IMG/VR virus record: IMGVR_UViG_3300042380_000665
Coordinates: 1-38,284 of that record
Length of the DNA: 38,284 nt
Reading direction: 5' to 3' (one strand)
Source of the DNA: a virus
The notes beneath the pieces are model-generated. The model saw only the letters and a list, made by a program, of their open reading frames with translations. It did no database searches and was not told the origin of the DNA. Shown here in pieces: positions 1,214 through 5,331 of this stretch. Numbering within the stretch: the stretch's first letter is position 1; the number at the start of each line of letters is the position of its first letter. Made by a program: the position numbers and the translations under genes.

Positions 1214-1549
1214 TTACTTGGGATCCACATAGCCGAGCAGGCGGAGCAGATCCATGACGACGTTCTTCGCGCGTGGATCGAGGGCGGCGATGAACATGCC
1301 CACCTGTTCGTTTCTGTGGATTTTCCGGGCGGCTTCTGTTTTGTCCAGGGACTCGATCTGGGAGCGCGACAGTCCGCGCAGCAATTTTTGATAGGTTTTA
1401 TCGGTGATTCCGGCGGGAACGTCCGCTCCGCTGCTGATGCGCGAGAGATAGGCGTGGCTGAGGCCGGTCACGCGGGCACCGGCGGCGAAGGTTTTATGGT
1501 TTTCGAGGATCATTTCGACGATCCTCTTGGGGTTCATATTCAATCTCAT
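1214..1549 (-). CDS. XRE-like HTH protein, candidate lysogeny repressor
   Basis: A 111-residue protein on the opposite strand to nearly all other genes. Residues about 15-60 fit a lambda-repressor-type helix-turn-helix (TFAAGARVTGLSHAYLSRI followed by a likely third helix); the remainder has no peptidase S24 motif, so RecA-type self-cleavage is not expected. The chosen ATG is preceded by AAGGAACC at a suitable distance. Its position, leftward between the integrase and a divergent set of rightward DNA-binding genes, is the classic immunity layout. The role as repressor is inferred from the fold and location. It could instead control only integrase or excisionase expression. Confidence 0.75.
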   Translation of the reverse strand: MRLNMNPKRIVEMILENHKTFAAGARVTGLSHAYLSRISSGADVPAGITDKTYQKLLRGLSRSQIESLDKTEAARKIHRNEQVGMFIAALDPRAKNVVMDLLRLLGYVDPK

Positions 1550-1699
1550 GGCGTTTGGTTCCTTTCATTTCATAGCTTAGTCAATCCGTTACTATTTTAC
1601 AAGTGCGAGGAATGCGGAAGTCGTAAAGCGTTGATTTCCAATAGAATTTAGTAATAGTTACGGCTTGCCCGTAGGTTTAAAAGGGAGTAGTGTAAAGTT
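1550..1699. promoter_or_regulatory. divergent immunity control region with candidate operators
   Basis: This AT-richer gap separates the leftward repressor from the rightward early genes and must hold both promoters. Two related 11-mers face each other: CCGTTACTATT at 1586-1596 and AATAGTTACGG at 1653-1663, inverted copies with one mismatch. The second lies in a small palindrome, GTAA-TAG-TTAC (1651-1661). They are good operator candidates. Promoter boxes are less clear: TTGATT at 1631 for rightward and a leftward TTGTAA-N17-TAAGCT just before the repressor are possible but weak. Confidence 0.5.
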
Positions 1700-1915
1700 A
1701 TGAAACCCGCACACCCCGACGCTATGTATCTTCGCCCCCAGCAGGCGGCCGATTTGATTTCGGCTCACGTAACCACGATCAACCTGTGGATTCGCCGCTT
1801 CCGAGAAACGGGCGGTTCGGATGGCCTCCGCTATTTCAAGACCGGCCACAACACGGTTTTTATCTCGAAGGCTGACCTCCTGGACTACCTCGAGGCCAAA
1901 GGGAAGGTCGTGTGA
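1700..1915 (+). CDS. small HTH DNA-binding protein (excisionase/Cro-like)
   Basis: A 71-residue protein whose whole length fits the MerR/excisionase-like winged helix family (HTH_17 type): YLRPQQAADLI forms the first helix, TTINLWIRRFRE the recognition helix, and TVFISKADLLDYLEAK the wing and closing helix. As the first rightward gene opposite the repressor it is placed to be an excisionase or an early Cro-like switch protein; the sequence does not decide which. Its stop overlaps the GTG start of the next gene by four bases, so the two are probably translationally coupled. Confidence 0.8.
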   Translation: MKPAHPDAMYLRPQQAADLISAHVTTINLWIRRFRETGGSDGLRYFKTGHNTVFISKADLLDYLEAKGKVV

Positions 1916-2595
1916 GCAAGGCGCTTGATGCCGCGTTCGACCTGGCCGCCGCCCGTCTTTTTGCAGGGCAGGGCGAGCAGACCGACCTTTTTGACGACGC
2001 CGCCGTTCTTTTTTGTCGGCGGGTAGAGACCGGGAATCTCCAAGCTATCCCGCGAGAGCTGCAATACACGGCCAGCACGCTCAAGGCCGGGAAGCCGGAG
2101 CTGTACAACCTCGTGGTGTGGATGCTGCTGCAGGGCATGGGAATCCGCCATGCCGCGCGGGTTGCGCAGATCAGCGCGAACACGGTCGGCGCGATTGCGA
2201 AGGAACTGGACCGGAGTGCCGATGTTGACACGGTGCGGGCTGCGCTGGCGGGTAATGCGCGAGCGCTGGCCCGGCTGACGCTGGAGCGGATCGAAGAGAT
2301 TCTGCTGGAGCGCGACCGCGACGAGCTGGACGAAGGGAAGCTGGCCAACCTCTTCAAACACCTGGTCGAGAAGGCAGAGCTGCTGGCCGGGAATCCCACG
2401 GAGCGTATCGAGTGGAAGCCCGAGCCCCGTGAGAAGATCGACTACGCCAAGTACATCGAGGCCGAAGCCGTCGAGATGGGTACCGGCGTCGGAAATTCCG
2501 GCCCGCATGGGACGGCGGCTGCCGGGTCCGATGGGGTTCACCTGGGCCTGCCGGATGCCAGTGTCCAGGTGCCCGACGTGCAGGAGGAAGGATAA
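1912..2595 (+). CDS. HTH and helical-oligomer protein (terminase small subunit-like or regulator)
   Basis: A 227-residue protein. About 75-105 reads as a helix-turn-helix (IRHAARVAQISANTVGAIAK), about 115-165 as long charged helices, and GNPTERIEWKPEP near 170-180 resembles a segment seen after the HTH in some phage small-terminase-like or phage HTH proteins. The C-terminal 40 residues are Gly/Ala-rich and probably disordered. GTG at 1912 overlaps the preceding stop and follows GGGAAGG. A small terminase would normally lie beside TerL (7779), 5 kb away, so an early transcription or replication regulator is equally possible. Function left open. Confidence 0.6.
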   Translation: MSKALDAAFDLAAARLFAGQGEQTDLFDDAAVLFCRRVETGNLQAIPRELQYTASTLKAGKPELYNLVVWMLLQGMGIRHAARVAQISANTVGAIAKELDRSADVDTVRAALAGNARALARLTLERIEEILLERDRDELDEGKLANLFKHLVEKAELLAGNPTERIEWKPEPREKIDYAKYIEAEAVEMGTGVGNSGPHGTAAAGSDGVHLGLPDASVQVPDVQEEG

Positions 2596-2858
2596 TGAAT
2601 CCTCTGTTTCTTCCCAATCTTCCCCAATGTTTACGGTCATTCCGTGCGGATTGCACGGGATTTGCACGGGTGCGGCCTGCGGATCGGGCGGTTTGCGGCA
2701 GGGTGCGCGTGGCGCGTGCGGCGTGGGCGAGCGGGCAGGCGGACGCGGCGTGGGCGCGGTCGCAAGGGGGCGGGGGGGGGGCTGCGGAGCAGCCGGGGGT
2801 CCAATCCATTTATCGCATTCAGTCACCCAGAAAGGAACAACATGTACACGGAAGTTGA
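2595..2858 (+). CDS. possible small coupled frame, 87 aa, doubtful
   Basis: This frame starts at an ATG in a TAATG overlap with the preceding stop, seven bases after GGAGG, so it is well placed for coupled translation. The product is rich in Arg, Ala and Gly, has no fold I recognise, and is partly encoded by a ten-G homopolymer (2772-2781). It would overlap the next gene by 17 bases. The same bases carry inverted CCGTGCAA motifs, which suggests a regulatory rather than coding interval. Kept because of the strong start signal, with low confidence. Confidence 0.25.
   Translation: MNPLFLPNLPQCLRSFRADCTGFARVRPADRAVCGRVRVARAAWASGQADAAWARSQGGGGGAAEQPGVQSIYRIQSPRKEQHVHGS
2642..2669 (-). repeat. distant cluster of the CCGTGCAA arm-site motif
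   Basis: Read on the minus strand, 2669-2659 is CCGTGCAAATC and 2658-2649 is CCGTGCAATC, matching the arm-type repeats around attP. A plus-strand CCGTGC at 2642-2647 makes an inverted pair with the second. The cluster lies 2.6 kb inside the early region, in the gap between two DNA-binding genes, where arm sites are not expected. Confidence 0.5.
2766..2799 (+). other. G-run and hairpin (possible G-quadruplex or slippage tract)
   Basis: Five Gs (2766-2770), one C, ten Gs (2772-2781), then a perfect hairpin GCTGC-GGA-GCAGC (2781-2793) and a final run of five Gs (2795-2799). The plus strand could fold as a G-quadruplex, and a ten-base homopolymer is prone to slippage in vivo and to sequencing error. 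It sits just before the 2842 gene. No function is claimed. Confidence 0.4.
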
Positions 2859-3279
2859 ATTGGTGGAATGGACCGGCCTCCCCAGGGCGGTTCTGCAAAA
2901 AAACCGGGCCGCCCTCGGCGTCCCGGTTGTGTCGCAGCGTCCGGTGGCCTACGACGCGGCGGGGGCGCTCAAGCTCCTGCGGGCGGTGGGCCTCGAAGGA
3001 ACAGACCAGAGCATCCTCGATTGGCTCACCACGCGAAAAACGGCGCGGCTGCCCCGCCTGGCGCGGGTGTTGCGAAGCGCGTGGCGCAACCCCCGGCTGA
3101 TGCGGGCGCAGATTACCGACGCCTCCCGCGAAGTGATTCGCGTGCGGGTGAAAGACGCCAGCCTGTTCAAGGTGGGCGTGATCGTGCAGGTGGTTCCCGG
3201 CGACTGCCACATGTGGCTGATCGACCCCGAGTGGGACCCCAAAAAACTGCGGCAGGCGCGGCGGGGGAAACTGTCATGA
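2842..3279 (+). CDS. uncharacterised protein with N-terminal HTH-like region
   Basis: A 145-residue product. The N-terminal 55 residues (YTEVELVEWTGLPRAVLQKN and following) resemble a small winged or MerR-like helix-turn-helix; the C-terminal half alternates hydrophobic and charged residues as in a beta-rich domain (ITDASREVIRVRVKD, VGVIVQVVPGD). ATG at 2842 is chosen over upstream starts because AAAGGAAC precedes it and the upstream frame runs through the G-rich gap. It belongs to the early rightward group before the structured RNA. Function unknown; a phage regulator is a guess from position. Confidence 0.7.
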   Translation: MYTEVELVEWTGLPRAVLQKNRAALGVPVVSQRPVAYDAAGALKLLRAVGLEGTDQSILDWLTTRKTARLPRLARVLRSAWRNPRLMRAQITDASREVIRVRVKDASLFKVGVIVQVVPGDCHMWLIDPEWDPKKLRQARRGKLS

Positions 3280-3299
3280 AAAAAAATGCGCGACCCCTC

Positions 3300-3329
3300 T
3301 TGACTTTGAAGCGGGTGATGCCCTATGCT
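3300..3329 (+). promoter_or_regulatory. putative strong promoter for the structured RNA
   Basis: TTGACT (3300-3305, five of six to consensus) is separated by 18 bp from TATGCT (3324-3329, four of six). Transcription would begin near 3336-3338, right at the first base pair of the outer stem of the RNA described next. The agreement between the predicted start and the RNA's structural edge supports both calls. Confidence 0.6.
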
Positions 3330-3335
3330 TGCACA

Positions 3336-3452
3336 AGTCTCGGCAAAGACACAAGCATAAGCGCATCATCACGCAGTCTATTCTCGGTCTGTGTGCGTTG
3401 TCCCGAAAGGGACACTGGTCCTTATGCCAGTCTTTGCCGAGCGCACGCAGAC
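3336..3452 (+). ncRNA. candidate structured RNA with two competing folds
   Basis: Seen directly: an outer 12-bp perfect stem (3339-3350 with 3430-3441), an inner 7-bp stem GCATAAG/CTTATGC (3355-3361 with 3421-3427), a hairpin CACGCAG/CTGTGTG (3370-3376 with 3389-3395, one G-U) and a 6-bp hairpin capped by a GAAA tetraloop (3399-3414). A rival 11-bp stem pairs 3387-3397 with 3442-3452; its 3' strand repeats the CACGCAG of the inner hairpin, so both compete for one partner. The rival stem starts immediately after the outer stem, so it could also stack on it as an H-type pseudoknot. The RNA lies between its promoter and the SD of the 3515 gene. It may be a phage small RNA or a leader element controlling that gene. 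I do not recognise the family. Confidence 0.6.
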
Positions 3453-3463
3453 TCTTCTTTGTT

Positions 3464-3481
3464 CCGGGACGGCAAACCCGG
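3464..3481 (+). promoter_or_regulatory. leader hairpin before the 3515 gene
   Basis: CCGGG (3464-3468) pairs with CCCGG (3477-3481) across an eight-base loop, extendable by T-G pairs. No T-run follows, so it is not a normal intrinsic terminator. It sits 20 bases before the SD AAGGAG (3501-3506) and could take part in leader control together with the upstream RNA structure. Confidence 0.35.
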
Positions 3482-3514
3482 GGGAGAGTTTGAAAACCAT
3501 AAGGAGTGTGTGTG

Positions 3515-3811
3515 ATGAACACGACGACGACTGAACTACCGCGCCCGCGCTATATCCGGGTGCGAGGCCTGGAATACTGGGCGGAGAAACTCAACGGGAA
3601 AGAGGCCTGCGTGTTGCTGGCCGCCATCGCCGAATACCAGGTGCCGCTGGGACGCGGCCCCTACCTCCACGAACTGCCCGCCACGATGCAGGGCTGGACG
3701 GAGGCCATGAAGACGCTGCGCCAGCGCAGCATGATAGCCGGGAACGGCGAGACCGAACCCTTCCGCGTCCTCCCCAACGGGCTGAATATTCTGGAAGGGG
3801 TGGCCGCATGA
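3515..3811 (+). CDS. uncharacterised small protein, 98 aa
   Basis: A 98-residue soluble protein, first gene after the structured leader. It begins with a Thr-rich tail, then YIRVRGLEYWAEKLNGKEA and a helical stretch to about residue 70. No known motif is recognised. ATG at 3515 is eight bases after AAGGAG; the upstream GTG at 3506 overlaps that SD and is rejected. Its stop overlaps the start of the next small membrane protein gene (ATGA), which begins an operon of tightly coupled small genes running to the replication genes. Confidence 0.75.
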   Translation: MNTTTTELPRPRYIRVRGLEYWAEKLNGKEACVLLAAIAEYQVPLGRGPYLHELPATMQGWTEAMKTLRQRSMIAGNGETEPFRVLPNGLNILEGVAA

Positions 3812-3981
3812 CCCCGCGCCTGATCGATTCGGAAACGCTGCGCGAGGCCCTGGAGGCCCGCGCGGGCAGGCGGGAGGAGGATGCCCGCCTGGGCGTCGTC
3901 GCCAGTGTCTGCGTGATCATCTACGCCGCCGGAGTGGTGGCATTGTTTGTCCTGAAATTTGGAGGAGGTTTGTCATGGTAA
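3808..3981 (+). CDS. small membrane protein, 57 aa
   Basis: Starts in an ATGA overlap with the previous stop and ends seven bases into the next gene. Residues 1-28 are charged and helical (EALEARAGRREEDARLG); about 29-51 form one clear transmembrane segment (VVASVCVIIYAAGVVALFV); a short Gly-rich tail follows. The charge pattern suggests the N-terminus faces the cytoplasm. The overlap on both sides, matching codon use and a clean hydrophobic helix support it as real. Possible roles include membrane anchoring of early proteins or superinfection exclusion; nothing specific is visible. Confidence 0.65.
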   Translation: MTPRLIDSETLREALEARAGRREEDARLGVVASVCVIIYAAGVVALFVLKFGGGLSW

Positions 3982-4465: not shown

Positions 4466-5331
4466 GCCCACTCCAACCCTCTGAATTTCCCTCTGGTGCG
4501 GAAGGCTACTTCCGCATCTGGAGGTGTCCGCAGATGGACTTCCTGATCCTCAATCCGAAGGCCCTGCAGCTCTTCATGCTGATCGTTACGACCGCCAGAT
4601 ACAAGGACGGATGGAACGAGCACGGATTGAAGATCAACCAGGCTTTCGTCGGGAAAAACTACGTTGCAAGCAAACTCGGCCTTACGCACCAAGAATATAG
4701 GACCGCAAAGGCAACAATTGAAATGACAGGCGCGGCAACGTTCCATCCAACAAACAAAGGAACCATCGTAACCATTTCAAATGAAGTAGCTTGCATTTAC
4801 ACAGGAATGGAAAGCAACACGCAGAACGACACACCAACCGACAAGCCGGACGCAACACCAAGGACACGCGAAGCAACAAAGCCTCAACAAACCCTCAACA
4901 AACCCTCAACAAACCCTCAACACCTAACTAAGAAAGAAAGAAAGAAAGAAGGGGAAGAAGGAGAGAAGGAACCACACACACACCGCGTGCGCGAGGGGAA
5001 GGCGGAAGAGCCTGCTGAACCCGGCCTGCTGTCCCTGGCGCAGGAGGTAGTCGATGCGCGTTGCGACTGGAAGCTGCGAGTGGACCATGTGGCCCTCGAA
5101 ATCCAGAAGTGCCCCAAGGAACTCCGCGAAGAGGCCGTTGAGCAGTTCGCCAAGGACATGGCCAACCAGGTGGACCCGCCGGACAATCCTCTGGCGTATT
5201 TCCGGAAGTACATGCAGAACGCCGACCGCTATTCTTCGCAGAACTCCGGCAAAAAAATAAACGGCGGGGCCACCGACGACGCGGATGATGCGTGGCGGAA
5301 GAAACTCAAGCGGGGGTTCCAGCAGGGATGA
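4462..5331 (+). CDS. replication initiator / helicase-loader-like protein
   Basis: A 289-residue protein immediately before, and overlapping, the DnaB helicase gene, the usual place for a phage origin-binding or loader protein. Residues about 15-110 read as a winged helix domain (ALQLFMLIVTTARYKDGWNE, NYVASKLGLTHQEYRTAK). Residues about 130-190 are low-complexity, rich in T, N, P, Q, then K and E, encoded by an iteron array and a polypurine run. The C-terminal part (about 195-270) is helical with NPLAYFRKYMQ, like loader or primosome C-terminal domains. ATG at 4462 overlaps the previous stop. The layout parallels lambda O, where the origin lies inside the initiator gene. Role inferred from context and architecture, not a named family. 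Confidence 0.65.
   Translation: MSPLQPSEFPSGAEGYFRIWRCPQMDFLILNPKALQLFMLIVTTARYKDGWNEHGLKINQAFVGKNYVASKLGLTHQEYRTAKATIEMTGAATFHPTNKGTIVTISNEVACIYTGMESNTQNDTPTDKPDATPRTREATKPQQTLNKPSTNPQHLTKKERKKEGEEGEKEPHTHRVREGKAEEPAEPGLLSLAQEVVDARCDWKLRVDHVALEIQKCPKELREEAVEQFAKDMANQVDPPDNPLAYFRKYMQNADRYSSQNSGKKINGGATDDADDAWRKKLKRGFQQG
4882..4971. other. candidate replication origin: iterons plus polypurine tract
   Basis: Three perfect head-to-tail copies of the 11-mer CCTCAACAAAC (4882-4914) and a partial fourth (4915-4922) are followed by an unbroken 42-base purine run (4930-4971) built mainly of GAAA units. Iterons beside a strand-asymmetric purine stretch, inside an initiator gene and just upstream of a helicase gene, match the organisation of the lambdoid origin. 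The alternative is a codon-level expansion coding a flexible linker. Confidence 0.5.

Follow-up and report, generated by a model that had tools for sequence, protein, structure and literature searches.

A structured RNA family with competing pairings in front of unrelated small genes in phages of several kinds

The stretch of DNA analyzed here, “the window,” comprises the 38,284 nucleotides of the virus record IMGVR_UViG_3300042380_000665 with genes for an integrase, a DnaD-like loader, a DnaB helicase, and a terminase. An RNA element is contained in the intergenic space between positions 3280 and 3514; all features given below are on the plus strand unless stated otherwise. The first gene after this leader is a small open reading frame (ORF) of 98 amino acids (3515 to 3811), for which no family was found. 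A −35 box TTGACT (3300 to 3305) and a −10 box TATGCT (3324 to 3329) with 18 nt between them can be read directly, as had been claimed before, and form the sole sigma-70-like promoter match between 3200 and 3700, where 0.1 would be expected. Relatives of the element carry TTGA[CT][AT] or TTTACA 34 to 36 nt 5′ of the RNA start; by best match, this −35-like box was present in 11 of the 12 loci, and L010 has TTGATT at the same place. The −10 box is good in the window only and poor in the relatives, which suggests that an activator or a different sigma preference may be involved. An inverted repeat surrounds the −10 box at 3316 to 3368 (TATGCTTG ... CAAGCATA, with GATGC ... GCATC). This palindrome had been noticed earlier and is readable in the window, and it is probably incidental because it did not recur, as judged by eye and without a formal test, upstream of the RNA in the relatives.

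The predicted 5′ end of the RNA is the AGT at 3336 to 3338, followed by CTC; AGTCTC or a near-match is present in the relatives, and homology ends here. Three bases further on begins the 5′ strand of P1 (3339 to 3350), a helix of 12 bp with 3430 to 3441. It encloses P2 (3355 to 3361 with 3421 to 3427), for which 77% of the alignment cells were paired in an imperfect alignment, and P3 (3399 to 3414), a hairpin with a GAAA loop in the window and UUCG or other loops in the relatives. The motif CACGCAG (3370 to 3376) is the 5′ strand of a hairpin, P2b, and competes for 3389 to 3395 with a pseudoknot (PK) formed by the strands PKa (3386 to 3397) and PKb (3442 to 3453). A U-rich stretch follows (3454 to 3463; CTTCTTTGTT in the window, UCUUUUUGUA in most relatives, with a nearly invariant UUUGUA), then the hairpin P4, CCGGG-ACGGCAAA-CCCGG (3464 to 3481), the loop of which (3469 to 3476) repeats the 5′ strand of P1, and finally a 3′ flank of P4 (3482 to 3492), which pairs with 3448 to 3458 and mimics PKa. 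A Shine-Dalgarno sequence AAGGAG was read in the window at 3501 to 3506. The element spans 3336 to 3492, about 160 nt, and is thus larger than first described.

The sequence-only reading had listed a perfect 12-bp stem (P1), a 7-bp inner stem (P2), a 7-bp hairpin (3370 to 3376 with 3389 to 3395, P2b), a GAAA-capped 6-bp hairpin (3399 to 3404 with 3409 to 3414, in P3), and a rival 11-bp stem (3387 to 3397 with 3442 to 3452) that starts where P1 stops and competes with the inner hairpin. All of these can be read in the sequence at the positions given. Covariation in homologues confirmed P1, the inner GNRA- or UUCG-type hairpin, and the rival stem, which is a true pseudoknot and the competition of which with the inner hairpin is conserved across loci. 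What had been missed was the further extension of the element in 3′ direction, P4 plus the pairing of 3448 to 3458 with 3482 to 3492, and a second, stronger competition, the copy of the P1 5′ strand in the P4 loop. A 5′ end at 3336 and a switch between the folds had also been proposed; both are still inferred in the absence of transcript data.

The region from 3336 to 3460 folds at −51.1 kcal/mol compared to a mean of −32.0 kcal/mol for shuffled sequences (z = −5.74; none of 200 shuffles). A protein reading was rejected: open frames cross the RNA in the window (2868 to 3515) and in the virus contig L007 (5161 to 6054), and neither frames nor peptides were conserved. An alignment of terminases retrieved 30 related virus contigs, and scans of viral contigs with single proteins yielded few relatives. 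The RNA itself was found by blastn in L007 (71% identity over 186 nt) and also in L010, which matches L008 (66%); the terminases of L007 and L010 share only about 39% of the amino acids with that of the window. A first covariance model, R1, built from the RNAs of the window, L007, and L010, identified seven homologues (E values of 5.6e-8 to 7e-19) among 346 genomes of one class, which we take to be Kiritimatiellia on the basis of L052, the genome on which the search was centered. A second model, R2, scored the same seven at 1e-24 to 3e-35, but these seven were in its training set. Two further virus contigs, L079 and L080, were added by a motif scan and were matched by R2 without having been part of its training. 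Altogether, 12 distinct loci are available, the window plus 11 others in four virus contigs and seven Kiritimatiellia genomes, with one match per genome in the R1 and R2 scans, and they belong to phages of several kinds.

Beyond the class members already known, no strong match was obtained in a 388-genome sample of the phylum, and none was obtained in 247 genomes of an Acidobacteriota phylum; scoring was limited to the best candidates of each genome, so that absence is not proven in either case. A collection of phage DNA yielded no match, and the closest prophage locus, L051, contains the upstream gene without the RNA. An exact scan for the P1 pattern returned 13 stretches, of which only those in the three known phages were real. 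The model matches L061 to L065 were rejected as weak and lacking the family features, and L077 was rejected as a coding stretch.

Alignment A7 with 10 sequences was fitted to the first model, so that counts from it lean toward the structure. In its 35 nested pairs, 91.6% of the cells were paired compared to 72.3% after shuffling, two-sided changes occurred in 29 pairs, and none of 500 shuffles reached any of these measures; sliding the partner strand by 1 to 3 columns decreased pairing to 37 to 54%. P1 was 100% paired, with changes on both sides in nine of its 12 pairs over 10 loci, and the P4 stem was likewise 100% paired with two-sided changes. P1, P3, the rival stem of the pseudoknot, and P4 all covary. 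The manually annotated helices are present in nearly all 12 loci, with P1 ranging from 10 to 16 pairs and containing at most one mismatch. The pseudoknot was fully paired over the chosen stretches in 11 of the 12 loci, with two mismatches in L007, and own partners matched far better than permuted ones (0 of 50,000 permutations; 1 of 50,000 for a subset of eight). These helices contain G-U pairs, which indicates that the plus-strand RNA is the structured molecule. The covariance search in related phages and PVC genomes, which the sequence-only reading had called for, thus revealed compensatory changes in both of its main stems, in phages of Kiritimatiellia, a part of the PVC group. A family of RNAs with these helices and the pseudoknot exists, and the structural part of the reading as a whole is very likely correct.

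The pairings of this RNA compete in three ways. P2b and the pseudoknot compete for PKa, and P2b with its own PKa had a summed energy of −106.6 compared to −81.7 with those of other loci (4 of 20,000 permutations). The P4 loop, paired to the 3′ strand of its own P1, reached a sum of 226 compared to 154 after permutation (0 of 100,000), and it tracks the changes in the P1 5′ strand between loci (CGGCAAA, CCGCAAA, CCGACAA, CCAGCAAG, CTGCAAAG, and CGATCAA versus CGACCAA). The PK 3′ strand together with the bases following it pairs with the P4 3′ flank, and only 2 of 50,000 permutations were as good. These permutations treat the loci as exchangeable, and kinship may inflate the result; the changes are spread over different kinds of phages. 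From the covarying pairings of the P4 loop and flank it follows that a segment “B,” composed of the P1 3′ strand and the PK 3′ strand, has two sets of partners, segment “A” upstream (the P1 and PK 5′ strands) and segment “C” downstream (the P4 loop and its 3′ flank). The alternative partners of 3430 to 3441 are 3339 to 3350 or the loop 3469 to 3476, and those of 3442 to 3453 are 3386 to 3397 or 3482 to 3492. This A-B-C anatomy is shown, while its regulatory outcome is inferred.

In all 11 intact loci, the start codon of an ORF is located 18 to 25 nt past the modeled RNA end, with a purine-rich, Shine-Dalgarno-like stretch in between. The ORFs are unrelated to each other, comprise 54 to 206 amino acids, and none belongs to a toxin family; a single one reached the Pfam cutoff, and that barely (DUF7557). 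The twelfth locus, L080, appears degenerate, with the RNA running into a broken gene that we read as Bro-N. Genes further away also differ. Operons of dnaD/dnaB are near the RNA in the window, L010, and L066, and L007 has another helicase. An antirepressor gene is two genes down in L069, in the order RNA-small ORF-antirepressor, exists as a broken remnant in L080, and was not seen in the other loci examined. The L071 locus is that of a Mu-like phage, L068 contains a transposase candidate (our reading of the protein, with no name in PHROGs), the RNA of L067 is in the gap behind a tape-measure gene, and that of L079 is near tail genes of a contractile phage, as judged by eye.

Either a phage small RNA or a cis-acting leader for the operon at 3515 had been suggested by the sequence-only reading, and both survive the covariance test; the leader is favored because the start codon remains 18 to 25 nt past the RNA in 11 of 11 intact loci in front of unrelated genes. 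A stand-alone RNA acting in trans on a host factor or mRNA, with the ORF merely in the same cassette and not controlled by the RNA, could be argued from the RNA's own promoter and from its occurrence in unrelated phages at different genome positions, which suggests a common host partner. This constant distance and the lack of a strong terminator after the RNA speak against it, so that it is unlikely. Even less probable is a structured leader that only stabilizes the mRNA or raises its translation without any switching. It would agree with a P1 beginning three bases from the predicted 5′ end and with a Shine-Dalgarno sequence that many predictions show as exposed, at least in part, but it leaves three covarying, competing pairings unexplained.

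The preferred reading is a cis-acting switch leader, forming a separate RNA family, that would work in a way similar to phage P4 CI, P1 c4, and Gifsy-1 IsrK. We propose it by analogy, at a probability of roughly 0.5 and without expression data; the anatomy supports it, and the switching itself is inferred. In this model, a phage-borne 5′ leader of about 160 nt would be transcribed from its own promoter into the small ORF. Segment B can pair with either A or C, A-B and B-C are mutually exclusive, and the P2b hairpin additionally competes with the pseudoknot. Such a strand exchange may gate the small ORF together with the genes that follow, dnaD/dnaB in the window or the antirepressor elsewhere, and it may do so through attenuation close to the U-rich stretch, via translation, or both. 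This stretch, directly 3′ of the PK helix, may provide the tail of a weak terminator or of a pause site, for which P2b would be the antiterminator; this is not shown, and the scores were modest. Action of a B-type RNA in trans is also possible, as in the phage immunity RNAs P4 CI and P1 c4 and in IsrK. Direction and level of control, as well as any action in trans, are inferred.

The model is based on the agreement of the A-B-C order and of the L069 gene order with published systems (PMC4825925). In the P4 leader with seqA, CI, and seqC, a middle segment has one complementary segment on its 5′ side and another on its 3′ side within the same early leader, as is found here; the window family differs by covarying pseudoknots, another architecture, and Kiritimatiellia hosts, and processing and termination are not shown for it. 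Gifsy-1 has the order isrK-orf45-anrP, with alternative IsrK structures gating the small ORF (PMC4825925). The likeness is a phage leader followed by a small ORF, in L069 also by an antirepressor gene, but most loci of the window family lack this gene, and a strong terminator of the IsrK type was not found. The c4 RNA of P1/P7 (Rfam c4 and c4-a1b1) pairs as an antisense RNA with downstream target segments near the ribosome-binding site (PMC12197685), which is again similar. As to the antirepressor gene (ant) behind a small ORF that marks c4, the loci give a mixed picture, with such a gene in L069, the remnant in L080, and none seen in the others examined. In Rfam at the gathering thresholds, no family, including isrK, c4, and c4-a1b1, matched the window, and relaxed thresholds gave nothing relevant there; a single c4-a1b1 match was on the opposite strand with 12.8 bits compared to a cutoff of 46.7. 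The seven homologues likewise yielded nothing relevant, and no isrK, c4, or c4-a1b1 match at E ≤ 1. Open-licence PMC literature on Kiritimatiellia and structured RNA contained nothing on the subject. We classify the element as a new and separate family within the phage leader RNAs whose strands compete, rather than assigning it to c4, CI, or IsrK.

Several points speak against the switch leader. The predicted accessibility of the Shine-Dalgarno sequence did not change consistently between the fold states, so that its simple sequestration by one of two folds was rejected. B-C pairing in cis would need help because C is transcribed only after A-B can form, and a loop pairing of 6 to 9 bp must open a P1 of 10 to 16 bp. 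As a terminator, the U-rich tail would be weak at best, and no strong one follows the RNA. In several loci (L067, L072, and L079), the genes downstream are other than early regulators. Alternatively, the RNA may be a pure cis riboswitch or a protein-binding translational leader, in which A-B and the P2b/PK alternative are the two states, a ligand or host factor is sensed, and no antisense action in trans occurs. For this speak the pseudoknot with its competing hairpin and the fixed distance to Shine-Dalgarno sequence and start codon, the nearly invariant unpaired UUUGUA motif, and a hairpin enclosing the Shine-Dalgarno sequence, which reaches P < 0.05 at 3 of the 11 loci and can be seen at additional ones. 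Against it, the pairing sequences diverge between near-identical phages, a simple riboswitch has no need for a copy of P1 in the P4 loop, and the downstream genes share no common pathway. Known riboswitch aptamer models in Rfam matched neither the window nor the seven homologues. This explanation is considered unlikely.

In two of the phages, L007 and L010, terL is 98.8% identical and the upstream gene about 88 to 100%, and the interval from this gene to dnaD is mostly unrelated. Their RNAs have conserved ends; the core is only 60 to 70% identical, and the changes in its segments A, B, and C are coordinated. An exchange of the whole cassette or a diversification of specificity may both account for this. 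A divergence in step is as expected for a specificity determinant and supports the switch-leader reading.

At positions 5316 to 6390 of L007 and in the matching stretch of L010, the genes surrounding the RNA are completely different; a hypervariable slot separates dnaD from the upstream gene, and the ends of the RNA coincide with the borders of the exchange. This coincidence, together with genes for an integrase, an antirepressor, or replication next to some of the RNAs, could indicate an element acting as DNA (an origin or a site of attachment or recombination) or else an antitoxin RNA of the type III or AbiF kind. In AbiF RNAs (RCd22) and type III toxin-antitoxin systems, a prophage RNA is located beside a protein gene (PMC12373285), which is also the case here; in contrast to type III systems, the window family has one RNA unit per locus without tandem repeats and no homologous toxin downstream. 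Lack of a common toxin-like protein and the single unit argue against an antitoxin. Only in an RNA would the pseudoknot and the G-U pairs be meaningful; the latter turn into mismatches when the other strand is read. Both versions are very unlikely.

Going beyond the switch leader, a bolder and tentative reading would be an RNA-only specificity or immunity cassette that is passed between unrelated Kiritimatiellia phages. Two mutually exclusive pseudoknots would share one strand, with paired sequences that are not the same in different phages. The cassette would control a variable small accessory gene, possibly for counterdefense or the lysis-lysogeny decision. If these sequences set specificity, RNA-based phage immunity would extend far past the enterobacterial examples P1, P4, and Gifsy. 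Independent of this, the analysis provides a new RNA family supported by covariation, together with a covariance model that can be used directly, in unrelated phages (the terL/DnaB group, Mu-like, and contractile-tailed ones) of a bacterial class whose phages have hardly been studied. The constant leader flags diverse unknown small phage proteins, which can be collected by searching for the RNA, and the A-B-C competition can be tested by compensatory mutations.

A few minor observations were made at individual loci. On the minus strand of L078, around 1501 to 1569, a 25-bit model match combines a hairpin resembling P1, a long run of T, TTTGTTTCCGG, and a GCAAACC hairpin resembling P4, with an ATG further downstream; it may be a distant, simplified relative or a chance match. 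In L072, a protein that resembles a PIN domain by eye follows the small ORF, 654 to 1073 bases past the RNA start. In L007 (7227 to 9953), two proteins, one primase/helicase-like and the other short and helicase-like, take the place of the window-type DnaB, with the RNA and the DnaD-like gene kept. Finally, L002 carries tandem genes for DnaB-like helicases (1396 to 3951), the products of which are 56% and 43% identical to the helicase of the window over the matched parts.
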